A stretch of DNA of 39,477 nucleotides from Chryseobacterium gleum (GTDB lineage: Bacteria; Bacteroidota; Bacteroidia; Flavobacteriales_D; UBA2798). The position numbers were made by a program, and so were the translations under genes. Positions 4,239-10,190 of this stretch are shown piece after piece. The stretch lies in the NCBI GenBank assembly GCA_945865695.1, contig CAMBFX010000010.1, forward strand, positions 1 through 39,477. Direction: 5' to 3'. Under the pieces are notes generated by a model. That model made no database searches, was not told the DNA's origin, and was given only the letters and a program-made list of their open reading frames with translations. Numbering within the stretch: the first letter of the stretch is position 1; each line of letters begins with the position of its first letter.

Positions 4239-6044
4239 TTATTTCACCATCAATTTCGTTGTTTTGCGAATAGAATCTGTTGTTAAAACGATTTGATAAA
4301 TCCCTTGTGATAAAGTGGATACATCTAGAAAAATGTCGTTTTTACCTATTCCAAAAGTTCCTTCTGAGAGTGTTGAAATAAGACGTCCAGTCATATCAAT
4401 TAATTCCACCTTACCGTTAAACTCAACATCGCTTAAGATGGGAATCCAAACAATCAAATCTGCAGGGTTCGGGAAAACCTCTCCGAATCCAAATGAAGAT
4501 TCATTGTTTTCTACAGTAAGTCCTTGGTCTAACACTTGGAAAGTAAAATTTCCTGTTGGAGCTGGCATTGGACGAACTTGTTGTTTTCCATTATTTGATT
4601 CGGCATGGATATAATAATAAATTCTTGTTCCAGCCACTTGTGCAGGAATGTTGGCTTCCCAATGATTGGTTGGAGAGGCAGGAGTCATTGCAATAGCAGA
4701 GTAACCGCTTCCTTCTGTTAAGGACCAATACAAAGTGGCATTGTTTATTCCTGATTTATTGGTGATGTAAGCGTCCACTAAATATGGATTTACGTCATCA
4801 TAAGTATCTACCAATTGTTGATGTGAAATTAATAATGGATTATCAGCACCGATGAGGTTGGAAATGCAATGTATTGCTCCGCTTTGTGCAATTAATGCTG
4901 AACCAGAATTGTCAACATCAATTCCTACAATTGTGTATCCGGGATATACACCTTCTAAAATTCTCTTTGCAATGGTATCATATTCTGTTCTGTAAAACGG
5001 AACCAAAACCGTTTTATTTATAATTACGTTATTAGTGTACGTTCGGTAATAACCTCCATTATCTGGGTGCGCGCCACCAGTACTAGGTGGTTGTGGTATT
5101 CTTACCCATTTGTATGGTGTTCCAAAAACAGAATTAAAGTTGTTGGCCACTAAATTCATGTTTGATTCAATTTGTGGACCATCAGCTATACCAATTGGAT
5201 ATTCTCCCATTAGAATAGTTTCTTCATCTGTTAATTTCATGTGCATATCGATATGATGAATTCCATCATAGGGAAGAGTGGGCATTTTTATATAACGCGT
5301 GATTCCCATAAAATCACTCATGATTGCATCAATGGCCGATTCATTATGATTTGGATAAACTAAACTACCATAATCACCAGCACCATCATTTTCATCTAAA
5401 ATTAATTCGGAGGCAAATGCAGTTCCGAAACCATCTACCATCCAATTTCCACCTGTATTCATTAGTTTAGTTGGATTACCCGTTGTTGCATGCAATCCTA
5501 CATTTCTATGTGCGGCGTAAATATCAGGCAGCACATCATCATCTGGACGTGGGCGATTATAAATCCAATCCACTAACAATAATGAGTCTACTTCATTTTT
5601 GTAAATAGTATGTGCGCCATAATCACGAATCCAAATGGAATTATAATTAGCTTCAATAAAATCAAGATTCATCAATGGAACTCCTGCATTTGTTAAGGTA
5701 GATTTTACGGTATTCGAATCAGTACAAATAATAATAACATCGCCTTCTTCTTGAGCAGCATCTACCATTTGTGTTTGGATGCTAGGAAATCCTGTCCATG
5801 TAATTACTAAAGCTTGAACTTCCTCCCACTGTGCCATAGTTCTAACAGGAAATGCTGGGGGAGTGGAAATACCTCTAGAGTTTCCAGTGTTCATGAAATC
5901 ATAACCGCCAGACTGGAGAAGTTGAATTTCTTCAGGAGAAAATCCTTTCGGTAAAATCGTTTCATTTTCGTGCTGAGCGAAAATAGAAGTTGAAATTAAA
6001 GTTGTAGTAGCAAGTAAAATTCCTGGTAAAATATTCATGTTCAT
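4239..6044 (-). CDS. Secreted peptidylarginine/agmatine deiminase family protein with T9SS type A sorting domain
   Basis: A 601-residue exported guanidino-group-modifying enzyme (PAD_porph family: agmatine deiminases and the Porphyromonas gingivalis peptidylarginine deiminase, PPAD). A signal peptide ends near SIFAQ (about residue 24). The catalytic domain holds Asp141 (WIRDYG), His264 and Asp266 (HHIDMH), Asn339 (YTNNVIIN) and nucleophile Cys393 (GAIHCIS). Asn339 and Cys393 have the same spacing as PPAD Asn297 and Cys351, from memory. The NRPRP segment (Arg164, Arg166) resembles the PPAD arginine pair that holds the substrate carboxylate. An immunoglobulin-like stretch (about 410-505) precedes a type A T9SS tail (about 520-601: EVFPNPA, GIYQIVL, KLMVK). 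By inference it deiminates peptides or free guanidino compounds outside the cell rather than cytoplasmic agmatine. Confidence 0.87.
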   Translation of the reverse strand: MNMNILPGILLATTTLISTSIFAQHENETILPKGFSPEEIQLLQSGGYDFMNTGNSRGISTPPAFPVRTMAQWEEVQALVITWTGFPSIQTQMVDAAQEEGDVIIICTDSNTVKSTLTNAGVPLMNLDFIEANYNSIWIRDYGAHTIYKNEVDSLLLVDWIYNRPRPDDDVLPDIYAAHRNVGLHATTGNPTKLMNTGGNWMVDGFGTAFASELILDENDGAGDYGSLVYPNHNESAIDAIMSDFMGITRYIKMPTLPYDGIHHIDMHMKLTDEETILMGEYPIGIADGPQIESNMNLVANNFNSVFGTPYKWVRIPQPPSTGGAHPDNGGYYRTYTNNVIINKTVLVPFYRTEYDTIAKRILEGVYPGYTIVGIDVDNSGSALIAQSGAIHCISNLIGADNPLLISHQQLVDTYDDVNPYLVDAYITNKSGINNATLYWSLTEGSGYSAIAMTPASPTNHWEANIPAQVAGTRIYYYIHAESNNGKQQVRPMPAPTGNFTFQVLDQGLTVENNESSFGFGEVFPNPADLIVWIPILSDVEFNGKVELIDMTGRLISTLSEGTFGIGKNDIFLDVSTLSQGIYQIVLTTDSIRKTTKLMVK

Positions 6045-7597: not shown

Positions 7598-7993
7598 ATG
7601 AATAGATTTTTACTTTCCATTTCTCTTTTAAGTTTGATTTTTAGTTCTTGTGATAAGAACAAAGAATTATCGACCTATTCTGAATATTATCACATACAAG
7701 ATGGTAATATTATTTCCTATATTTTTGTTCCGAATACATTTACTCCTAATGCAGATGGGAGTAATGATTATTTTTTTCCAATTGCAAGTAATTTTGTCAA
7801 CCAAGATTTTGAATGGAAAGTTTATAATTCGAATGAAGAAATAATTTTTGTTGCCCAAGATCAAGATGGAAAATGGGATGGAACTTATAAAGGTTTATTT
7901 GTAGAGGAAGGCACGTATATCTATAAAGTAATCGCCAAAGATATTACTGGTTATGAATTTGAAATTACAGGTAATTTAAACTTGATGCGTTAA
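7598..7993 (+). CDS. Small lipoprotein consisting mainly of a T9SS type B (CHU_C-like) sorting domain
   Basis: A 131-residue predicted lipoprotein: signal peptide with lipobox IFSSC (Cys18), about 24 residues of linker, then a single domain (about 42-131) matching the gliding-motility-associated C-terminal (type B T9SS sorting) domain. Diagnostic pieces are FVPNTFTPNADGSNDYF (43-59), WDGTYKG (93-99), GTYIYKV (105-111) and the final GNLNLMR. Such domains normally sit at the end of very large adhesins; here there is no passenger. The stop overlaps the stop of the minus-strand PorP/SprF gene by 4 bp, the usual partner type for type B substrates. It may be a surface lipoprotein, a decoy or adaptor for the secretion machinery, or the remnant of a larger adhesin. 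A weak TATATTGC box lies only 3 nt before the ATG. Confidence 0.82.
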   Translation: MNRFLLSISLLSLIFSSCDKNKELSTYSEYYHIQDGNIISYIFVPNTFTPNADGSNDYFFPIASNFVNQDFEWKVYNSNEEIIFVAQDQDGKWDGTYKGLFVEEGTYIYKVIAKDITGYEFEITGNLNLMR

Positions 7994-8964
7994 TAGAACA
8001 TGGAGGAATGCTCCATATGTTTTTTATGTGCATCTTTTTTCCAAAATTTAAAAGCCGATGTAAATTCATGCGTTCCACCTGTATTTTGATTTTCTAAAGT
8101 TGAATCAGTAATCTCATAACAATAACTAATTCGAGCATTGAATTTCGAATAGCCAATTAAAAATGCGTAGGAATCGCTCGCGCGGAGATTGAATCCTAAT
8201 AAAATGTTTTTGAATTCTGTATTTAATCCATAATTAAGGTTTTTAAAATTTCCTTGTGAAATGGCAGTAAAATAAGGTTGTATTTTTAATTCAGATTCTT
8301 TAATTCGGAATTTTAGGATGTGACCTAAATGAAAACCTAATTTCATTGGAAGCGGTGAATTTCCTGTCAGTAGCGATTCATTGGGTTGTGTAATATGATG
8401 AATTGAAATTGCCATTCTAGTGTTGTAGAAATTAGCAAGTAATCCAGCATTGAAATCCACGTTGGTAATTTTGCCTCCCCGAGGAATATCATTTGTTGAA
8501 TATCTGAATCCTGATCGTGGATCAATCTGGTCGCCAAAACTAAGTTGATTCCAATCTACAACTTTATTGAAATAACAGAATTCCATGGAAGGTCGTAATA
8601 ACAGTTTTTTGATTTTAATGTTTTGAGAATAGTTGAAAGTCATTCTTTGAGTAGTGAAGGCTCCTGCCTTATCATACATATAATGAAAACCGGCATAAGA
8701 ATTCATTTTTCCAATATACTGCTGCCAACCAAAAACTGTAGTTTGATAAGTTCCCGATAATTTTGGCCATTGATTGCGATGCGTAAGGAAAACTGTTCCC
8801 ATGGTATTACTACCTGCAAATGCCGGATTGTTATAAGTCATCGCCCCGAATGATTGGGTGAATTGAGGATCTTGGGCGGAACAATTAATTAATAATGAAT
8901 AATTACAAATTAATAATGAAAGACATTTTTGCAAGGAAGAATTATATTTTAAATACTGATTCAT
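7990..8964 (-). CDS. PorP/SprF family type IX secretion membrane protein
   Basis: A 324-residue outer-membrane beta-barrel of the PorP/SprF family, whose members help type B-tailed T9SS substrates cross or anchor at the outer membrane (SprF serves the adhesin SprB). After a signal peptide ending CSAQ (about residue 31), the mature start DPQFTQSFGAMTYNNPAFAG is the family signature, followed by HRNQWPKLSGTYQTT and many alternating barrel strands. The hydrophobic core of the signal peptide is a 7-residue duplication (SLLICNY then SLLINC) from a 21-bp DNA direct repeat. It converges with, and overlaps by 4 bp, the sorting-domain lipoprotein. The family call is firm; the partnership is inference from neighbourhood. 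Confidence 0.9.
   Translation of the reverse strand: MNQYLKYNSSLQKCLSLLICNYSLLINCSAQDPQFTQSFGAMTYNNPAFAGSNTMGTVFLTHRNQWPKLSGTYQTTVFGWQQYIGKMNSYAGFHYMYDKAGAFTTQRMTFNYSQNIKIKKLLLRPSMEFCYFNKVVDWNQLSFGDQIDPRSGFRYSTNDIPRGGKITNVDFNAGLLANFYNTRMAISIHHITQPNESLLTGNSPLPMKLGFHLGHILKFRIKESELKIQPYFTAISQGNFKNLNYGLNTEFKNILLGFNLRASDSYAFLIGYSKFNARISYCYEITDSTLENQNTGGTHEFTSAFKFWKKDAHKKHMEHSSMFY
8887..8920. repeat. 21-bp-period direct repeat inside the PorP/SprF signal peptide
   Basis: AATTAATAATGAA occurs at 8887-8899 and again at 8908-8920, a period of exactly 21 bp (seven codons), so the reading frame is kept. The words resemble AT-rich dispersed intergenic repeats of Bacteroidota. Confidence 0.7.
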
Positions 8965-9017: not shown

Positions 9018-9197
9018 GGACCCCTCCGTCTCGAAGACGAGCCACCTCCCCTTATCAAGGGGAGGAGTAAAGACAGGCGTGCTTAAAGTCTGTATTTAAT
9101 TAGAAAAGTTTTGTAAATATTGTAAAATATTAGTTTCGGAGATATCCAACTCTTCCCCTTGATAAGGGGAAGTACCGCGAATGCGGGGAAGGGGTCC
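9018..9197. repeat. 180-bp inverted repeat with CCCCTTATCAAGGGG cores
   Basis: The left arm 9018-9067 and right arm 9150-9197 are inverted copies beginning GGACCCCT and ending CCCCTTATCAAGGGG plus A/G. About 82 bp separate them. Each arm carries its own short palindrome, so both local hairpins and a long cruciform are possible. It is markedly more GC-rich than its surroundings. Words of this kind recur between genes in many Bacteroidota genomes, from general recollection. Confidence 0.8.
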
Positions 9198-9506: not shown

Positions 9507-10190
9507 TTAAGAAGTGAATTTATAACCCACCCCGCGCACTGAATGAAAATATCTTGGTTCACGAGGGTTCTTTTCAAAATACTTTCGGAAAATTAAAATA
9601 TAGTTGTCGATGGTTCTGGAAGTGGGAAAAGTATCTTCTCCCCAAATTAAATCCAAAATTTCTTCTCGCGAAACCACTTGATTTTCTTTGTCAATCAATA
9701 ATTTAAGTAATTGAATTTCGCGATTCCCTAATTCAGCTATTTTTTTATCTTTTTCAAAAATTTCGTAGGTTTTGAAATTGATTTTAAATTCTCCAAATGA
9801 ATAGTCTTCAGCTACAATTTGTGTTTTTTTATTGCGACCCATGAGAATCTTAACACGAAGTAATAATTCTTCTAAATTAAATGGTTTCACTAAATAATCA
9901 TCTGCACCAATTTTCAAACCGGTAACCCGATCTTCGCCTGAACCACGTGCGGTCAAAAATAAAACGGGTGTTTCTGTATTACTTTTTCTAAATTCCTTAC
10001 AAACATCAAAACCATTTATACCCGGCATCATCACATCTAAAATCAAAAGATCAAATCCATTTTTTTTAGCTTCCAAAAGTGCATCCTTTCCATTAGCAAC
10101 AGTAGTCAATGAATAACCTTCCATTTCCAGGTTCAATTTAATGACATGTAAGAGGTTTTCTTCGTCTTCAGCAAGGAGGATTTTGTTCAA
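9507..10190 (-). CDS. OmpR/PhoB-family response regulator, TTG start, no adjacent kinase
   Basis: A 227-residue DNA-binding response regulator. The receiver domain (about 1-118) has the acidic pair Glu8/Asp9, phospho-acceptor Asp52 (LILDVMMPG), Thr80 and Lys102 (LVKPF). The C-terminal winged helix (about 130-227) has LGNREIQLLKLL, WGEDTFPTSRTIDNYI and the wing motif SVRGVGYKF. The start is TTG (10190-10188): an in-frame TAA lies two codons upstream, no ATG is available, and MNKILLAEDE is the expected N-terminus of the family. The TTG and next codon fall inside the first unit of a 14-copy heptamer array filling the leader. No histidine kinase gene is in the window, so the signal and partner are unknown. 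Confidence 0.93.
   Translation of the reverse strand: MNKILLAEDEENLLHVIKLNLEMEGYSLTTVANGKDALLEAKKNGFDLLILDVMMPGINGFDVCKEFRKSNTETPVLFLTARGSGEDRVTGLKIGADDYLVKPFNLEELLLRVKILMGRNKKTQIVAEDYSFGEFKINFKTYEIFEKDKKIAELGNREIQLLKLLIDKENQVVSREEILDLIWGEDTFPTSRTIDNYILIFRKYFEKNPREPRYFHSVRGVGYKFTS

Follow-up and report, generated by a model that had tools for sequence, protein, structure and literature searches.

Proteins of the PorP/SprF family bind type B C-terminal sorting domains (CTDs) of the type IX secretion system (T9SS) as cognate pairs and remain bound to them at the surface (PMC9143113, PMC12618676). The genes of ordinary type B pairs are co-directional, with the substrate gene followed by porP (PMC12618676). 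In the gliding machinery, SprF joins the track only after SprB has been exported and loaded onto SprF (PMC12635249). In Porphyromonas gingivalis, PG1035 is bound to PorP and is dispensable, and Gorasia et al. speculate that it serves as a cap for PorP (PMC9143113). The CTD protein PorA does not need the T9SS to reach the surface (PMC7712824). Open questions in the field include the recognition of type B signals by PorP/SprF carriers and the subsequent action of a loaded carrier.

Here, we analysed a window of 39,477 nucleotides from Chryseobacterium gleum (contig CAMBFX010000010.1, positions 1 to 39,477), in which a small predicted lipoprotein bearing little else than a type B CTD is encoded tail-to-tail with a PorP-family protein. 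Both protein families and their mutual binding are already known. In the open-access literature, we did not find a description of a conserved, passenger-free type B domain with a lipobox lying tail-to-tail with its own PorP. The pair would offer a minimal, adhesin-free ligand of about 90 residues beside its probable own carrier, small enough for structural work.

A predicted lone sorting-domain lipoprotein and its PorP neighbour

The small gene (7598..7993, plus strand) encodes 131 residues within an open frame of 137 codons. Its product begins with MNRFLLSISLLSLIFSSC..., a signal peptide with the lipobox LIFSSC (7598..7651, plus strand) ending in FSSC at the predicted lipidated Cys18, continues with a linker of about 25 residues and ends with the CTD (residues 42-131; 7721..7990, plus strand), which was delimited by profile matches and an 11-row alignment and has GNLNLMR as its last residues. 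The n-region, hydrophobic core and lipobox MNRFLLSISLLSLIFSS-C18 are those of a lipoprotein (signal peptidase II). The CTD scored above the cut-offs of both CHU_C (PF13585; 42.4 bits, cut-off 27, residues 43-113) and TIGR04131 'T9SS type B sorting' (42.2 bits, cut-off 35, residues 44-131), the latter match spanning everything C-terminal to the linker. No passenger domain was found N-terminal to the CTD, nor any other Pfam family above its cut-off in this protein. The initial annotation, which had described a 131-residue protein made of a lipobox, a short linker and a sole CHU_C-type domain, was confirmed. Such a short frame is unusual in its own genome, where 43 places exceed the TIGR04131 cut-off, nearly all in frames of at least 259 codons, and the sole shorter type B frame (110 codons) starts at a contig end. 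A single-sequence AlphaFold model of the small protein was unusable (pLDDT 44), so that the assigned fold rests on the profile matches; among solved structures, just a weak match to the C-terminus of the Aureispira grappling-hook protein was found (E 0.007).

The neighbouring gene (7990..8964, minus strand) encodes an outer-membrane barrel protein of the PorP/SprF family, 324 residues long and with a signal peptide ending in SAQ. It matches PF11751 (PorP_SprF) over its full length (residues 29-304; 3e-39, 135.7 bits, cut-off 22.3) and also TIGR03519 (1.1e-47, 163 bits, cut-off 90.55); no solved structures matching it were found. Because its last 40 residues contain no cysteine, it is not an SprF of the GldK-linked type. 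By their ORF coordinates, the two genes overlap tail-to-tail by 4 bp, sharing TTAA (7990..7993): in plus-strand coordinates, the TAA stop of PorP occupies 7990-7992 and that of the small gene 7991-7993, just as had been claimed for the two stops. A weak terminator-like hairpin, ATGGAGGAATGCTCCAT followed by a T run (8000..8016, plus strand), lies within the 3' end of PorP; the scan that returned it found two hairpins against 1.5 expected by chance, which is about chance level overall, and no obvious conservation of the hairpin was seen at the junctions of other loci.

The same genome holds further proteins with sorting domains or PorP-like regions. Two genes from the pair, a peptidyl-arginine-deiminase-family protein (4239-6044 of the window) carries a T9SS type A sorting tail (Por_Secre_tail). 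Elsewhere, on contig C23, a 607-residue protein (L225, 9609-11432) has a PorP-like C-terminal half and no Pfam match, and its N-terminus (MTRITPDNLDKWLFNLNEG...) resembles anti-sigma/FecR-type regulators by eye. Two type B CTD proteins with PKD domains (L227, 3706-5124, and L230, 2404-3567) have cytoplasmic-looking N-termini without a signal peptide at the ORF start and possibly span the membrane.

Conservation of the pair, its gene order and its site

When the small protein was used as the query against 60 relatives, the matches were mostly the ends of long adhesins. Near-full-query matches in short frames came from G001 (same family, 132 aa) and G012 (another family, 133 aa). A profile of these three sequences (A1) led to G702 and G496, both in another order; a five-sequence profile added G794, G791, G612 and G782 from the same second order, and a nine-sequence profile added G416 and G433 from two further families. 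The ten further homologues, of 132-143 aa, and the window protein make eleven members in five families of the class. The family was found in 3 of 399 genomes of the home order and in 6 of 36 genomes of the second order.

In the 11-row alignment, every member consists solely of a signal peptide, a lipobox cysteine, a stretch of 20-35 residues and a type B CTD. Cys18 is an invariant column, and the linker is short and variable. The lipobox cysteine was found in all eleven members (ten by a scripted rough rule, G416 by eye) and, by the same rule, in just one of 31 type B ORFs with internal starts from outside the family, a contrast that is partly circular since the member profiles included the signal peptide. 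A Pfam scan of nine members placed seven CTDs above the cut-off of 27, with those of G012 (25.3 bits) and G001 (22.3 bits) a little below it. With an equivalent cut-off accepted beside that of Pfam, the count above it is 9 of 11 among those scanned. Most members keep the CTD end motif G-x-(V/L)-x-L-x-(K/R); the G001 member lacks the canonical last strand, yet its pair is kept. The window protein reads C-DKNKE from the cysteine onward and does not fit the published Bacteroidota surface-export signal, which varies between species. An exact fit to the surface lipoprotein signal C-X-K-(D/E)2 is present in G416 and G433, both CKKEE, and G012 has QADD, the Q-A-(D/E)2 form of the signal.

Other short CTD ORFs, in G148, G203, G249, G360, G377 and G384, appear to be fragments from contig ends, split adhesins or short CTD proteins of the ordinary kind, and none lies beside a PorP gene. 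We also noticed type B CTD proteins of another, nearly passenger-free kind, 146-172 aa long and conserved in at least two families (L276, 5583-6023; L277, 5110-5550; L278, 5222-5665; L279, 1967-2485). These are not lipoproteins: they have an ordinary signal peptide ending in ...AQQ or ...AQN, no PorP nearby and a long gene following theirs.

The small gene adjoins a PorP-like gene in 11/11 genomes, and the order is convergent in 10/11 pairs, nine of which have gaps from -4 to 1 bp and the tenth, in G433, one of 122 bp. The G001 pair is co-directional with PorP upstream; this PorP is very divergent, scoring below the Pfam cut-off, and was assigned by an iterated profile and BLAST. In contrast, all 14 other CTD/PorP neighbours in the loci of the same genomes are co-directional and none is convergent, and the CTD gene lies upstream with PorP directly downstream in 13 of these 14 ordinary pairs but in 0 of the 11 small-gene pairs. 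The window pair does not fit the canonical substrate/shuttle operon rule of a co-directional PorP downstream. The initial annotation had asked whether the two genes are neighbours elsewhere and in convergent order; across five families they are neighbours, mostly in convergent order. Independently of these pairs, a 201-residue type B CTD protein with a lipobox lies behind a very divergent PorP-like gene in G059 (L042, 6845-8388), co-directional with it and perhaps of independent origin.

The pairing was also examined with two anchors independent of the small protein: the response-regulator orthologue in the home order and the PorP subfamily in the second order. An OmpR-type response regulator (9507..10190, minus strand; PF00072, PF00486) flanks the site of the pair as a positional neighbour. 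Among 46 home-order relatives in which the neighbourhood of its orthologue was read, G001 and G012 are the sole ones where PorP adjoins the regulator as it does in the window, and both also have the small gene. The PorP subfamily of the second order is distinct (>350 bits versus <290 for paralogues), and the small gene accompanies 6 of its 7 clear full-length orthologues. The exception is G741, where an intact PorP orthologue lies directly against AddB and the small gene is absent; thus, the pair is not obligatory. In G797, PorP is broken and there is no small gene. Scanning genome contigs with the response regulator returned only distant regulators and no new pairs.

In G001, G012, G496, G791, G612 and G782, the response-regulator orthologue is next to the pair or at most 2 kb away, so that, with the window, such closeness of a regulator is seen in 7 of 11 genomes from two orders; none was found near the pair in G416 and G433. 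In G001, G012, G496, G791 and G612, the pair sits between the response regulator and an AddB-like PD-(D/E)XK nuclease gene. In about 15 genomes without the pair, these two flanking genes are convergent neighbours, -4 to 464 bp apart, and G001 with the pair and G002 with the empty site belong to the same genus. One conserved site that is empty in about 15 relatives argues for an old module lost as a unit rather than for a truncated adhesin. In the simplest reading, the pair would be an old two-gene unit lost many times from one site, repeated gain at that site being less simple. Moreover, because the regulator and AddB stand together where the pair is missing, old gene order explains the closeness of the regulator, which is weak evidence for signalling.

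Several second-order genomes have a sigma-70-family factor beside or near the pair. In three second-order species, a GldM gene lies near the pair and a sigma-70-family factor (L222, 9445-11085; L247, 2616-4259; L248, 9280-10875), identified by a Pfam match for L222 and by the coordinates of a GldM search for L247 and L248. The stretches around these GldM genes are apparently without GldK, GldL and GldN, and the genomes hold at least one other GldM copy. In the window, an inverted repeat of 25 nt (92%) at 9044-9068 and 9149-9173, with 80 nt between its arms, surrounds ACCTCCCCTTATCAAGGGGAGG. It lies between PorP and the response regulator, within a stretch with GGACCCCT-like ends, and resembles a small non-autonomous mobile element. 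Its core motif was confined, within the loci read, to copies of the window itself.

NG86 dN/dS, estimated in four second-order comparisons, was 0.14-0.29 for the small gene and, in the same analysis, 0.09-0.15 for PorP; these values are approximate as dS exceeded 1. The small gene is constrained, but it evolves faster than its PorP partner. In trees of PorP (43 rows) and the CTD (118 rows), whose rows are short or divergent, the pair members are not recovered as one clade: the window, G012 and G001 are unplaced relative to each other, G433 branches elsewhere, and CTDs of 90 residues resolve poorly.

A type B CTD normally terminates a long protein, and the small gene could be the leftover of a large adhesin whose passenger was deleted, which had been named as the finding that would undo the initial annotation. 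We reject this idea, to which we give hardly any credence, because the purifying selection comes with a fixed architecture. The same short gene, including its signal peptide, recurs in eleven genomes of five families, with its neighbour, orientation and site conserved. Furthermore, in the window no adhesin traces were recognised in the interval from the small gene to the next gene upstream, and no long adhesin occupies the site of the pair in any locus read.

Possible roles of the small predicted lipoprotein

The initial annotation had offered three roles for the small protein, an anchor adaptor, a competitor or a plug, and among these we favour the plug or cap. Cognate binding between CTDs and PorP proteins, the proposed capping by PG1035 and the change in SprF upon loading together suggest a resident ligand. 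We tentatively propose, at somewhat less than even chances, that the small protein is a cap or 'dummy cargo' for its own PorP barrel, a dedicated and resident ligand without a passenger. It would be made as a lipoprotein, its N-terminus being retained in the outer membrane, while the sorting domain would dock on the neighbouring PorP barrel as does the CTD of a secreted adhesin. Docked without cargo, it could keep PorP in the occupied state, with the lipid tethering it to the membrane within about the length of the 25-residue linker. Lipidation, physical binding between the partners, capping and the side of the membrane are what we infer here; the architecture, the PorP pairing, the conserved convergent order, the one chromosomal site and the purifying selection are what we observed. 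The agreement of the two independent anchors on the pairing speaks for the cap. Against it, most members retain an intact C-terminal export motif, which fits ordinary secretion as well, and a periplasm-facing protein might have no access to the surface position at which CTDs are thought to dock. Moreover, the pair members are not recovered as one clade in either tree, and G741 has the PorP without the small gene.

The retained end motif and the adjoining cognate PorP would equally suit a true minimal T9SS substrate, exported by the translocon and held by PorP at the surface, whose linker of about 25 residues or lipid would act as an adaptor tethering another surface partner or PorP itself. Type B CTDs and their shuttle suffice for secretion (PMC12618676), and the surface-export signals of G416, G433 (CKKEE) and G012 (QADD) are in line with such a location. 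However, a lipidated N-terminus is unusual in T9SS substrates, judging from the single lipobox in the comparison set of 31 type B ORFs. The short linker varies between members, most of them, the window protein included, depart from the surface signal, and the G001 pair persists despite the loss of the canonical last strand. We regard this explanation as rather unlikely. The closeness of the regulator in 7 of 11 genomes from two orders and the sigma-70-family factors of the second order would be expected if the barrel and the CTD lipoprotein formed a sensor in the outer membrane and signalled to the OmpR-type response regulator beside them. PorA of P. gingivalis, a signalling CTD protein whose route to the surface bypasses the T9SS and which acts upstream of PorXY-SigP, provides a precedent. 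Such a sensor is improbable: many genomes without the pair have the regulator and the AddB-like gene as convergent neighbours, so that an old gene order explains the presence of the regulator. In addition, no regulator lies near the pair in G416 and G433, and no histidine kinase was recognised next to the window pair.

The tail-to-tail overlap might itself be functional, with convergent transcripts tuning each other by antisense RNA or interference, independently of what the proteins do. Nine of the ten convergent pairs are as tight as -4 to 1 bp, and the small gene's terminator-like hairpin falls within the reading frame of PorP. Yet no hairpin is conserved at the junctions, the G001 pair is co-directional, and the regulator and AddB can be equally tight (-4 to 1 bp) where the pair is absent, so that compact 3' ends may be typical of the site; we consider such tuning decidedly improbable.

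The recurrence of the pair in distant bacteria suggests that the label itself, without cargo, is a working part. If the cap or dummy-cargo reading holds, sorting signals could turn into resident subunits of outer-membrane complexes, and the small protein would provide a way to keep a carrier loaded without a giant adhesin. The term 'secretion-partner module', used initially for the pair, appears plausible. A more specific proposal, which we hold to be doubtful, is a conserved two-gene module in which a lipid-anchored, cargo-free signal serves as a permanent dummy substrate and keeps a dedicated PorP shuttle locked in the occupied state, the signal domain being a structural or regulatory subunit of the outer membrane instead of an export tag.

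Comparison with described CTD/PorP systems

The PorP-PorE-PG1035 complex of P. gingivalis (PMC9143113) likewise has a type B CTD protein that remains on a PorP barrel; this protein is dispensable for T9SS function, and a capping role was suggested for it. However, PG1035, at about 50 kDa, is far more than a CTD, whereas the window protein is a predicted lipoprotein of 131 aa, almost a CTD alone, with its gene convergent with porP. SprB-SprF and other cognate pairs of Flavobacterium johnsoniae (PMC12618676, PMC12635249) involve the same two families encoded by neighbouring genes. Those pairs are co-directional, with the substrate gene before porP, and have long adhesin passengers, in contrast to the convergent, passenger-free pair of the window; moreover, SprF is linked to GldK through a Cys-x-Cys in its C-terminal tail (PMC12635249), a motif that the window PorP lacks.

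Similarly, PorA (PGN_0123) of P. gingivalis is a small CTD protein with a role other than carrying an enzyme or adhesin (PMC7712824). It differs in having a FimH-like N-terminal domain and in binding PorV, and the parts of PMC7712824 available to us describe no PorP neighbour. The 201-aa protein of G059 (L042, 6845-7450) shares the lipobox and the type B CTD beside a PorP-like gene, but has a small extra N-terminal region, a co-directional arrangement and a very divergent PorP, and is probably independent of the pair described here.
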